Shown: positions 49,284-50,788 of the stretch, piece by piece | How the letters are laid out: every line of letters starts with the position of its first letter | Numbering within the stretch: position 1 is the stretch's first letter | Assembly: GCF_019801145.1 (NCBI RefSeq) | Contig: NZ_JAHVJQ010000002.1 | Span: 62,001-126,000, forward strand | Reading direction: 5' to 3' | Source of the DNA: Leisingera aquaemixtae | GTDB lineage: Bacteria; Pseudomonadota; Alphaproteobacteria; Rhodobacterales; Rhodobacteraceae | Length of the DNA stretch: 64,000 nucleotides | Translations under genes and position numbers: made by a program | Notes under the pieces: model-generated | Seen by the model: only the letters and a program-made list of their open reading frames with translations | Database searches by the model: none | Told to the model about the DNA's origin: nothing

Positions 49284-49360
49284 GCGCCCGCGCCGCGGCA
49301 GCGGCGCCCGGCCCAACCGCAAGGGGCATTCCCCCAATGCCCCCGGCGCGGGCGGGAGCC
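49284..49360 (+). repeat. Family A repeat, copy A6
   Basis: The first hairpin is GCGCCGC-GGCA-GCGGCGC, the linker GCCCAACCG, the second hairpin GGGGCATT/AATGCCCC and the end box GGCGGGAG. It begins six bases after the phytase-like gene and may act as its terminator. Confidence 0.7.
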
Positions 49361-49364
49361 TTTC

Positions 49365-49443
49365 CCTGCCTGGAAAACTTGCAGGCAGGATCCCAGCGGG
49401 ATAAAGGGGCCGGTCTTTTGCAGCCGCGGAGATTTTATCCGCG
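49365..49443 (+). promoter_or_regulatory. Structured leader candidate upstream of the queuosine transporter
   Basis: Two perfect hairpins lie before the start: CCTGCCTG/CAGGCAGG (49365-49372 and 49382-49389) and CGCGGA/TCCGCG (49425-49430 and 49438-49443). The gene at 49469 lacks a good Shine-Dalgarno. A structured leader is possible, since preQ1 riboswitches control such transporters, but I could not match a known class. Confidence 0.3.
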
Positions 49444-49468
49444 CCCCCGAAACATACGGACCCGACCG

Positions 49469-50104
49469 ATGACCCGCTCGCATATTCCCGGCATTCTTGC
49501 CATGGCCGCCGTGGTGGTGGCCTCCAACGTCCTGGTGCAATTCCTGTTCGGCGACTGGCTGACCTGGGGCGCCTTCACCTATCCGGTGGCTTTCCTTGTG
49601 ACCGACGTGATGAACCGTGTCTATGGCGCGGCGGCGGCGCGCCAGGTGGTGATGGCCGGGTTCATCACCGGGGTGGCCTGTTCATTGATCGGCACCCAGA
49701 TCACGCTGCAGGGCGACGGTTTCACCTACCCGGCGGTGACCCTGCGCATCGCGCTCGGCTCTGGCCTGGCGTTTCTGACGGCGCAGATGCTGGACGTCGC
49801 GGTGTTCTCGGCCCTGCGCGAGGGGAGCTGGTGGCGGGCGCCGCTGGCCTCCACCCTGATCGGTTCCTCGGTCGATACCGCAATCTTCTTCTCTGTCGCC
49901 TTTTCCGTCTCGCTTGCCTGGATCGATCCGGCCAATGATGTGTCCTGGGCGGGCGACATGCTGCCCCTGATCGGGCAGGGTCCCGTGGTGCCCTACTGGG
50001 TCTCGCTGGCCTTTGCCGATTGGCTGGTGAAACTGTCGCTGGCGCTGCTCGCGCTTGTGCCCTTCCGCATCATAGTGCGTTCGTTAACCAAGAAGGCCAC
50101 ATGA
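49469..50104 (+). CDS. Queuosine precursor transporter (YhhQ/VUT family)
   Basis: The 211-residue protein has about six membrane helices. The family hallmark is ASNVLVQFLFGDWLTWGAFTYPVAFLVTDVMNRVYG (residues about 19-53). Further helices include VMAGFITGVACSLIG, LAFLTAQMLDVAVFSAL and WVSLAFADWLVKLSLALLALVPF. YhhQ proteins import queuosine precursors such as preQ1/preQ0 across the inner membrane for tRNA modification. The start ATG at 49469 is chosen by homology of the N-terminus; no strong ribosome-binding site is visible. Downstream lies the arfB leader. Confidence 0.92.
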   Translation: MTRSHIPGILAMAAVVVASNVLVQFLFGDWLTWGAFTYPVAFLVTDVMNRVYGAAAARQVVMAGFITGVACSLIGTQITLQGDGFTYPAVTLRIALGSGLAFLTAQMLDVAVFSALREGSWWRAPLASTLIGSSVDTAIFFSVAFSVSLAWIDPANDVSWAGDMLPLIGQGPVVPYWVSLAFADWLVKLSLALLALVPFRIIVRSLTKKAT

Positions 50105-50111
50105 TTTTGTT

Positions 50112-50117
50112 TTGACA
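50112..50117 (+). promoter_or_regulatory. -35 element TTGACA before the arfB leader
   Basis: A perfect TTGACA begins eight bases after the queuosine transporter stop. No strong -10 is visible at the right distance (GGCTGAAC region at about 50136-50143), so the promoter is tentative. It would start a leader transcript just ahead of the small ORF. Confidence 0.45.
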
Positions 50118-50173
50118 TTGGCAGAATCTGTGGCAGGCTGAACTTACACGAAACATCAGAAAGGAGGTGCCCA

Positions 50174-50251
50174 TTGTCTAGAGAAGCTATGGAGAGCAGT
50201 GCCGGAACAGTTCAGAAGGAGTGCGGCCGAGGCAGCCCTTGGTACGTATAG
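50174..50251 (+). CDS. 25-residue leader ORF in the arfB leader
   Basis: The TTG start at 50174 follows a perfect AGGAGG (50162-50167) with six bases of spacing, much stronger than the signals of most genes here. The peptide begins MSREAMES and ends GRGSPWYV before TAG. It carries no signal peptide or known motif; the SPWYV end might stall ribosomes. The Shine-Dalgarno segment AGGAGGTGC (50162-50170) is the exact reverse complement of GCACCTCCT at 50281-50289. Its codons contain GGAACAG (50204-50210) and CAGCCCTT (50233-50240), the two halves of the 3' arm of the terminator before arfB. It is probably a regulatory ORF; peptide function is unknown. Confidence 0.65.
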   Translation: MSREAMESSAGTVQKECGRGSPWYV

Positions 50252-50262
50252 ATCACTGAATT

Positions 50263-50289
50263 GGTGCTGACCTAACCGGTGCACCTCCT
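50263..50289 (+). promoter_or_regulatory. Anti-Shine-Dalgarno segment able to pair with the leader ORF or a local hairpin
   Basis: GCACCTCCT (50281-50289) can pair over nine bases with the leader ORF's Shine-Dalgarno at 50162-50170. It can also pair through GCACC with GGTGC at 50263-50267. Its sequence resembles the anti-Shine-Dalgarno tail of 16S rRNA (CACCTCCT). These mutually exclusive pairings suggest a translation-sensitive switch. Confidence 0.5.
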
Positions 50290-50298
50290 ATCATCTCG

Positions 50299-50340
50299 AA
50301 GGGCTGTTCCCCGCGTGTGGAACAGCCCTTTCGATTTTGG
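50299..50340 (+). terminator. Intrinsic terminator upstream of arfB
   Basis: AAGGGCTGTTCC (50299-50310) and GGAACAGCCCTT (50319-50330) form a perfect 12-bp stem with an eight-base loop, followed by TCGATTTT. It lies 29 bases before the arfB start, so it either ends a small RNA or attenuates arfB. The 5' arm can alternatively pair with parts of the leader ORF (8 bp at 50233-50240 or 7 bp at 50204-50210). Confidence 0.8.
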
Positions 50341-50368
50341 AACACCCCCGCCGCGAACAAGCAGAGCC

Positions 50369-50788
50369 ATGATCCGCATCAACGAGAACATCACCCTGCA
50401 GGACTGGGAAATGACCGAGAGCTTCATCCGCGCCTCGGGTCCCGGCGGGCAGAATGTGAACAAGGTGGCAACCGCGGTTGAATTGCGGTTCGAGGCCGCC
50501 CGCTCGCCTGCGCTGGCGCCTGCGGTCAAGTCGCGGCTGAAGCGGTTGGCAGGCCGCCGCTGGACCAAGGAAGGCGCGATCATCCTGCAATGCGACGAGA
50601 CCCGCTCGCAGCAGCGGAACCGCGAGATCGTGCGCGAGCGGCTGGCGGAGCTGGTGCGCAAGGCGCTGGTGGCGCCCAAGCGGCGGATCGCCACCAAGCC
50701 TACCCGCGGCTCGGTCAAGCGGCGGCTGGAGGCCAAAAAGCAGCGCGGCGAACTGAAAGCGACGCGCGGTAAGATCGACCCGGATTGA
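50369..50788 (+). CDS. arfB: Alternative ribosome-rescue factor ArfB (peptidyl-tRNA hydrolase)
   Basis: A 139-residue release-factor-like protein that frees ribosomes stalled on truncated mRNA. The catalytic GGQ is Gly26-Gly27-Gln28 in RASGPGGQNVNKV. The C-terminal tail (about residues 105-139) is rich in Lys and Arg (KRRIATKPTRGSVKRRLEAKKQRGEL), as required for binding the empty mRNA channel. The start at ATG 50369 follows an A/G-rich region (GAACAAGCAGAGCC) with no strong ribosome-binding site. The leader contains a small ORF and terminator that may regulate it. Confidence 0.95.
   Translation: MIRINENITLQDWEMTESFIRASGPGGQNVNKVATAVELRFEAARSPALAPAVKSRLKRLAGRRWTKEGAIILQCDETRSQQRNREIVRERLAELVRKALVAPKRRIATKPTRGSVKRRLEAKKQRGELKATRGKIDPD

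Follow-up and report, generated by a model that had tools for sequence, protein, structure and literature searches.

A small RNA with a conserved short reading frame ahead of arfB in Rhodobacteraceae: a candidate for ribosome gating and a probable relative of CC2171

In Leisingera aquaemixtae a 264-nt stretch separates a queuosine-precursor transporter gene from the ribosome-rescue gene arfB (positions 50105–50368 of the window, that is, of the whole 64,000-nt stretch of DNA that was analysed), and the question is whether it is a leader that controls arfB or a gene in its own right. The original prediction favoured the former, a translation-sensing attenuator in which a short open reading frame (ORF) governs the choice between a terminator and an antiterminator, with an independent small RNA carrying a CCUCCU motif as the alternative; fold stability, covariation and conservation in relatives were proposed as checks. 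The elements that it named, namely a Shine–Dalgarno (SD) sequence, an ORF with a TTG start, a nine-base complement of the SD and a 12-bp hairpin, were all recovered at, or within a few bases of, where it had placed them. The complement to the SD block is indeed exact and the downstream gene is indeed ArfB (Table 1).

Table 1. Features of the interval between yhhQ and arfB and of its two neighbours; positions are those of the window.
Feature	Positions	Strand	Remarks
yhhQ/Vut_1 queuosine-precursor transporter, upstream neighbour	49337..50104	+	Pfam PF02592, E 6.7e-29; TIGR00697, E 1.7e-27; true start uncertain
Promoter-like element	50112..50139	+	TTGACA 50112-50117, 16 nt, then weak -10-like CAGGCT 50134-50139; read from sequence
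Small RNA gene, probable distant CC2171 (RF01867) relative	50146..50339	+	Ends approximate; cmscan and conservation
16S-tail-complementary block AGAAAGGAGGTG, 12 nt, AGGAGG inside	50158..50169	+	SD
P2 hairpin, includes start codon	50170..50193	+	CCCATTGT 50170-50177 with GCTATGGA 50186-50193; RNAalifold, 55 Rhodobacteraceae sequences
Short ORF, TTG start, 25 codons	50174..50251	+	Stop TAG 50249-50251
P3 5′ strand CCGG	50202..50205	+	Partner 50276-50279
Small hairpin (helix 5) CCGAGG-CAGC-CCTTGG	50227..50242	+	Relatives' stop codon at hairpin base
Anti-SD segment GCACCTCCT, 3′ strand of closing helix P1	50281..50289	+	Exact complement of, and paired with, 50162-50170 (AGGAGGTGC)
Terminator hairpin and T-rich tail	50299..50339	+	12-bp stem, 50299-50310/50319-50330
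arfB, downstream neighbour	50369..50788	+	NCBIfam NF006718 ArfB, 182.9 bits, E 2.3e-54

Judged from the sequence, transcription would start near 50146 and give an RNA of about 190 nt. The T-rich tail of the terminator is interrupted (TTTCGATTTTG), and the arfB ATG lies 38 nt past the terminator stem and 29 nt past the end of the tail. The 264-nt stretch was found to fold moderately more stably than its shuffled counterparts (z = −2.22; 7 of 200 shuffles at least as stable). In the predicted fold the SD block pairs with the anti-SD segment, the ORF is enclosed between them and the terminator hairpin follows.

A cmscan search matched the RNA to the Rfam family CC2171 (RF01867) at 50151–50328, with 31.6 bits and an E value of 4.9e-5, the alignment being complete over model positions 1–159 and running through to the terminator. 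This score does not reach the gathering score of the family (75 bits), which leaves the window RNA outside formal membership, and a scan of the whole window at curated cut-offs found nothing. Within its genome the locus is the top match to the model (E 1.3e-4; runner-up 21.3 bits, E 0.04), and five Rhodobacteraceae relatives scored between 25.7 and 45.7 bits. Upon removal of the 5′ block, no RF01867 match was left for the window RNA. Homology to CC2171 is treated here as probable, not proven.

In Rfam the CC2171 entry is a small RNA gene, classed as non-coding, and the RNA was reportedly found in Caulobacter by Landt et al. in 2008. In our literature search no paper dealt with what CC2171 does or whether it is translated. 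Passages of two papers name RF01867 (PMC11701678; PMC5596092), and a passage of the first places CC2171 among the families given an improved structure in Rfam 15. Passages of a further paper (Schrader 2014; PMC4117421) state that the observed ncRNA regions of Caulobacter were seen by ribosome profiling to be untranslated and that two formerly predicted ncRNAs are actually translated; the two are not named in those passages, and CC2171 may be one of them. The family itself is already known, and what appears to be new is its class-wide conserved frame, its long match to the 16S tail and its internal counterpart of that tail.

The RNA is present in all 21 genomes of the genus that were searched, at 92–100% identity. 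In Rhodobacteraceae, sampled at one genome per genus, the 5′ motif was found in 161 of 198 genomes and a reversed-pattern control in 15 of 198, so that a small number of the 161 could be fortuitous. The family pattern for the 5′ block, which tolerates at most two mismatches, was built for relatives and misses the window's own genome, the genus being one base short there. A stricter pattern was found in 74 of 385 genomes of the class (reversed-pattern control, 0). When genomes were drawn from across the phylum, it was present in 38 of 67 inside the class versus 1 of 182 outside it. With the Rfam model at E ≤ 0.1, matches were obtained in 110 of the 385 class genomes, only 13 of them above the cut-off, and in 4 of 14 control genomes, one above the cut-off; the control matches make the weak matches of that survey unreliable. 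The filters of that survey were stricter, and it missed the window's own genome. Genomes available by name contributed at least 120 stretches, including Rhodobacter, Bradyrhizobium, Methylobacterium, Bosea, Microvirga, Brevundimonas and Falsiroseomonas.

From 361 loci, seven were dropped for want of a usable motif or of sufficient sequence, and the remaining 354 gave 330 distinct sequences; these are related to one another, so that counts are not counts of independent events. For Rhodobacteraceae ('the family' below) the 118 loci were not deduplicated and the 115 sequences were. One genome (G048) carries two such RNAs, at C1:805112 (L050, MSHCHALN...) and C1:2922049 (L345, MSHGSAKG...), a possible paralogue pair. 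A subtype of the ORF, mostly MSSE...EQP..., was seen in L331–L334, L341, L347, L353, L360, L232 and L274, and its recurrent EQP codon stretch is probably a further constraint of RNA structure. The same extended SD block also stands before ORFs of 55–57 aa in L187, L205, L354 and L355, signal-peptide-like by eye, which look like unrelated genes caught by the pattern. Since they share it, the SD block is not wholly specific to the RNA. These four were kept among the 330, and ORFs outside 14–36 codons were excluded from the analyses of complementarity, neighbours and masking.

The promoter and terminator signals were compared across the family. A TTGAC-like −35 element stands 46–51 nt 5′ of the SD motif in 78 of the 115 sequences, as against a mean of 1.4 and a maximum of 4 in 100 shuffles. 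A simple consensus scan for promoters and terminators reported neither the TTGACA element of the window nor its terminator, the former being missed because its −10 is poor. A terminator hairpin scoring at least 30 was found in 110 of 115 sequences versus 1 of 115 shuffled ones; the score was used because presence alone is uninformative, the finder being positive in 116 of 116 sequences but also in 103 of 115 shuffled. Moreover, the upper stem of the terminator (helix 7) showed two-sided compensatory changes in all six of its pairs (55 sequences).

The gene order yhhQ–RNA–arfB is typical of Rhodobacteraceae, with yhhQ upstream in 104 of 118 loci, arfB downstream on the same strand in 99 and both in 91. 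Loci in which arfB stands at a greater distance are L258, L269, L320/L108 (apparently duplicates from one genome), L061 and L069; in three of the 118 it lies more than 330 nt from the motif. Twelve loci, from 11 genomes, have yhhQ and 700 nt or more of sequence but no arfB match within the 0.7–1.2 kb examined. Among the matches listed for the named set, arfB is 3′ of the RNA in 28 of 119, always with yhhQ and three times displaced. Outside Rhodobacterales the loci examined have varied neighbours, such as YaiI/YqxD, a divergent release factor 3 and many others, and no adjoining arfB. In seven Microvirga-type loci (L100, L111, L117, L126, L150, L170 and L177) the divergent upstream neighbour clusters with a release factor 3 protein, which likewise belongs to translation termination; the identity rests on one 150-residue piece (NCBIfam). 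For a further neighbour, the 150-residue piece that was searched matched no NCBIfam family. A general link to translation genes through the neighbours of other lineages was considered and set aside, as release factor 3 accounts for these seven loci and the neighbours overall are too varied. With its own −35 element, its own terminator and varied neighbours, the RNA looks like a self-standing gene that happens to lie ahead of arfB in one family, and a leader specific to arfB was not supported.

The short ORF within this RNA was examined for conservation of its start, stop and frame. Its start site in the 330 distinct sequences is GTG in 257, ATG in 48 and TTG in 24, with a single exception (NTG in 329 of 330); as the collecting patterns favoured TG at this position, what is informative is how the first base varies. 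All of the 30 loci that score best with the Rfam model, which are independent of the patterns, have a GTG or ATG start and an ORF of 20–26 codons. In the family, 99 of 115 sequences carry a stop at codon 19 (TGA 49, TAG 32, TAA 18), and TGG never occurs there although G is frequent at both variable positions. Nearly all of these sequences were gathered by a pattern that ends at codon 2, and the stop count is thus unselected. Frame 0 is open across the first 17 codons in 114 of 115 sequences, as compared with 62 and 57 for the other frames. Likewise, in the MSHC type of ORF the distance from the start to an internal (C)CTGGA element is 34, 37, 40 or 43 nt and keeps the same phase in 41 of 42 sequences, these 42 being the ones among 93 in which both elements are present; the distance from the stop to the 3′ element falls into phases of 17/14/11, and the frame is not kept. 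The genus of the window is atypical in the family. Its codon 19 is now CGA (50228–50230) and the spacing from SD to start is a base short (50169–50176); the ORF runs on to 25 codons and ends at one common stop position in each of the genus's 17 distinct sequences.

The preservation of start, stop and frame across relatives is strong evidence for a translated ORF, and it is on this comparison that we regard the ORF as probably translated; a conserved ORF inside a small RNA is also the coding mark of a dual-function (coding and regulatory) small RNA. The peptide is a different matter. In codons 2–12 there is a modest excess of synonymous changes (71 of 185, versus 54 ± 6 at random; 92 nearest-neighbour pairs), and in codons 13–18 there is no amino-acid constraint (85 of 364, versus 100.6 ± 7.5); this test used 18-codon ORFs only (130 distinct), so that its stop column is selected. 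Codons 5–7 (ATA TTG GAG) pair with TCCAGTGT around the start codon to form P2, and conserved codons also lie in the pairing CAUUGUC/GACAAUG. In the MSHC-type L083, TGG ATC ... GCC TCC of the ORF complements GGAGG.GATCCAG at the start region. The amino-acid conservation is weakened as proof of a functional peptide by the fact that several conserved codons fall in RNA helices. None of the ORF peptides tested matched an NCBIfam (four tested) or a Pfam (three tested) family. The peptide looks secondary to the RNA.

The SD block was next compared with the 3′ tail of 16S rRNA. The tail GGCTGGATCACCTCCTTTCT was found in five of six genomes of the same genus that were searched, and a search for the site in the window's own assembly found none. 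The window block matches it over 12 contiguous nt. A match of at least 17 nt is present in 46 of 115 family sequences by strict pairs and in 94 counting G-U, and in 12 and 21, respectively, of the 30 loci of the class chosen by the model. The duplex with the tail was calculated at −22.6 kcal/mol for the window block and −35.0 kcal/mol for the consensus block.

Covariation was assessed in an alignment (A1) of 55 Rhodobacteraceae sequences, comprising the window sequence (L001) and 54 of the 99 family sequences with an 18-codon ORF (55 taken at random, L256 dropped). A second set (A2) held 39 sequences chosen among 60 listed of 73 MSHC sequences. In A1, 21 of 44 pairs show two-sided changes, where shuffles give 14.1 ± 1.7, and when the partner is shifted by a single column the pairing falls from 87.9% to 62.5% or 50.8%. 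The closing helix P1 is paired in 97.7% of cells with no two-sided changes, as expected if the SD strand is fixed by 16S rRNA, and the SD side hardly varies. P2 is paired in 95.9% of cells with two-sided changes in 2 of 8 pairs, and P3 in 95.4% with 2 of 4. Helix 5 (76.8%; 3 of 6 pairs) and helix 4 (66.5%) are weaker.

The effect of this fold on the start region depends on the type of RNA. In 25 sampled sequences of the Rhodobacteraceae type, the probability of the SD being unpaired is 0.07, versus 0.35 with the downstream part shuffled. The 14-codon type (15 sequences) gave 0.13 versus 0.23 for the SD and 0.01 versus 0.41 for the start codon. Full-length folds of the MSHC type showed no masking (SD 0.33 versus 0.27, start codon 0.59 versus 0.33; 25 sampled), and nor did those of the remaining types (SD 0.31 versus 0.32, start codon 0.50 versus 0.37; 25 sampled). 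A complement of the start site lies in the interior of the ORF in the 14-codon type (−19.5 versus −12.5 kcal/mol shuffled), the MSHC type (−19.2 versus −13.9) and other types (−17.0 versus −12.4). In Rhodobacteraceae it sits in the 3′ part (−18.6 versus −14.2), and only 16% of the ORF interiors reach p ≤ 0.05 for start-site complementarity. Comparison within Rhodobacteraceae shows a masking fold that sequesters the start region, and with the ORF being evolutionarily real a translation-responsive RNA is a reasonable proposal. To this extent the attenuator idea is supported; its antiterminator and its tie to arfB alone are not.

The antiterminator tells against a cis-attenuator of arfB, in which occupancy of the ORF by ribosomes would pick terminator or antiterminator and hence the degree of read-through. 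The match between the 5′ arm of the terminator and the ORF on which the proposal was built is real in the window, where it spans 8 nt, a length that no shuffle out of 100 equalled. Relatives do not repeat it: over 115 of them, for this arm/ORF pairing, the longest match averages 4.03 nt versus 4.15 nt in shuffles and attains 7 nt or more in 2 of 115. The window's match is best read as chance or as specific to the genus. The loci with yhhQ but no arfB match, the displaced arfB genes and the retention of the RNA by other families with no adjoining arfB in the loci examined also argue against it. The prevailing gene order, a gap between terminator stem and arfB of median 51 nt (quartiles 31 and 78; n = 97) that leaves little room for another promoter, a real ORF and the attraction of a link to ribosome rescue all speak for such an attenuator, which we nevertheless consider decidedly unlikely. 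Read-through into arfB by another route is possible, given that arfB is 3′ of the RNA in most family loci. Were the RNA instead a small mRNA that encodes a functional micropeptide (MSREALEKGVGTV... in Rhodobacteraceae, MSHCHxPRS...TWIVAS in other groups), its fold serving only to control synthesis, this would account for the conserved frame, start and stop and for the synonymous excess in codons 2–12. Several of the conserved codons coincide with RNA pairing, however, the C-terminal third is unconstrained, and lineages differ in a peptide that, where tested, matches no known family; we regard this reading as unlikely.

Two further explanations give the function to the 16S-like and 16S-complementary segments themselves. 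For a trans-acting small RNA whose CCUCCU segment covers the SD sites of target mRNAs, there is the frequency of CCUCC-like 3′ segments in Rhodobacteraceae (a permissive pattern with no shuffled control matched 144 of 148) and the precedent of other Caulobacter small RNAs with an anti-SD motif, described as the SisA family in a passage of PMC12559287. It is nevertheless very unlikely in our view: only 19 of 74 MSHC-type RNAs carry the segment in their 3′ part, the conserved reading frame is left unexplained, and in the A1 alignment the segment pairs almost throughout with the SD of the RNA itself. The CCUCCU was rejected as a free seed on the last of these grounds; independence, the other half of the alternative originally put forward, came nearer the mark. 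A decoy or sensor for free 30S subunits, whose long 16S-complementary block traps or counts them while the peptide is irrelevant, would suit the long matches to the tail, the stability of the consensus duplex, the preponderance of weak start codons and the unconstrained C-terminal part of the peptide. In the window, though, the match spans just 12 nt, and effective trapping would need a very high copy number, which makes a decoy improbable.

The reading that we prefer, with a probability of about 0.6, is that positions 50146–50339 encode a self-standing, translated and ribosome-gated small RNA, probably the Rhodobacteraceae branch of CC2171. Comparison of relatives supports the autonomy of the RNA, its conserved start, stop and frame and, in Rhodobacteraceae, the masking fold; translation itself, the switch and its output are what we infer here. 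The 30S subunit would be recruited by the unusually long SD block complementary to the 16S 3′ tail, and initiation would take place at a mostly weak codon, usually GTG and in the window TTG. In Rhodobacteraceae the SD block and the start codon are folded away by P2 and by the 16S-tail-like 3′ segment (P1), and the ribosome and the RNA's own 16S-like segment would compete for one site, with ribosome supply deciding the outcome. A ribosome passing codons 5–7 would open P2, flipping the RNA between a closed and a translated state. As the output, ribosome loading would most likely determine what becomes of the RNA, through its stability or its base-pairing, and in Rhodobacteraceae some read-through into arfB may come as a local addition.

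A broader version, which we hold tentatively and think rather unlikely, is that the RNA serves throughout Alphaproteobacteria as a readout of ribosome availability, free 30S subunits having to outcompete its own copy of the 16S tail before translation can begin. The copy would lie inside the ORF in many lineages and in the 3′ part in Rhodobacteraceae. Since frame, start and stop are selected and the peptide is not, the act of translation would be the signal, and in Rhodobacteraceae the readout would be placed directly ahead of the gene for ribosome rescue.

A family filed as non-coding appears to carry a selected frame across much of Alphaproteobacteria, with its later amino acids largely free, which would make the RNA a clear test case for translation, not the peptide, as the function. 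The competition between ribosome and fold can be put to a direct test, given the long match to the 16S tail and the internal copy of that tail. Read-through into arfB, should it occur, would couple ribosome loading to ribosome rescue in Rhodobacteraceae.

The window RNA shares with CC2171 the 5′ block (GAAAGGAGGTG...), a short ORF directly behind it and an intrinsic terminator, within about 160–190 nt, and the CC2171 consensus in the same frame reads GUG UCU CAU UGU CAU CAA; the 3′ half of the window RNA differs in having another closing helix. The CcsR-type and other CCUCCU-motif RNAs of Rhodobacter are likewise small alphaproteobacterial RNAs with a CCUCCU motif. Unlike in these, the CCUCCU of the window RNA is paired with its own SD, and the motif is not general to the family of RNAs to which it belongs. 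Pos19 of Rhodobacter sphaeroides, from the same bacterial family, is a small RNA termed coding in the title of its paper (PMC5036791); it is a different RNA, stress-induced and 219 nt long. The rnTrpL/peTrpL attenuator RNA of Sinorhizobium (PMC7298713; PMC10117765) is small as well; it carries an ORF of just 14 aa and a terminator and responds to translation. That RNA comes from the trpE leader and begins with its AUG, whereas the window RNA is equipped with a promoter element of its own and a long SD, and the gene that follows it is not constant.
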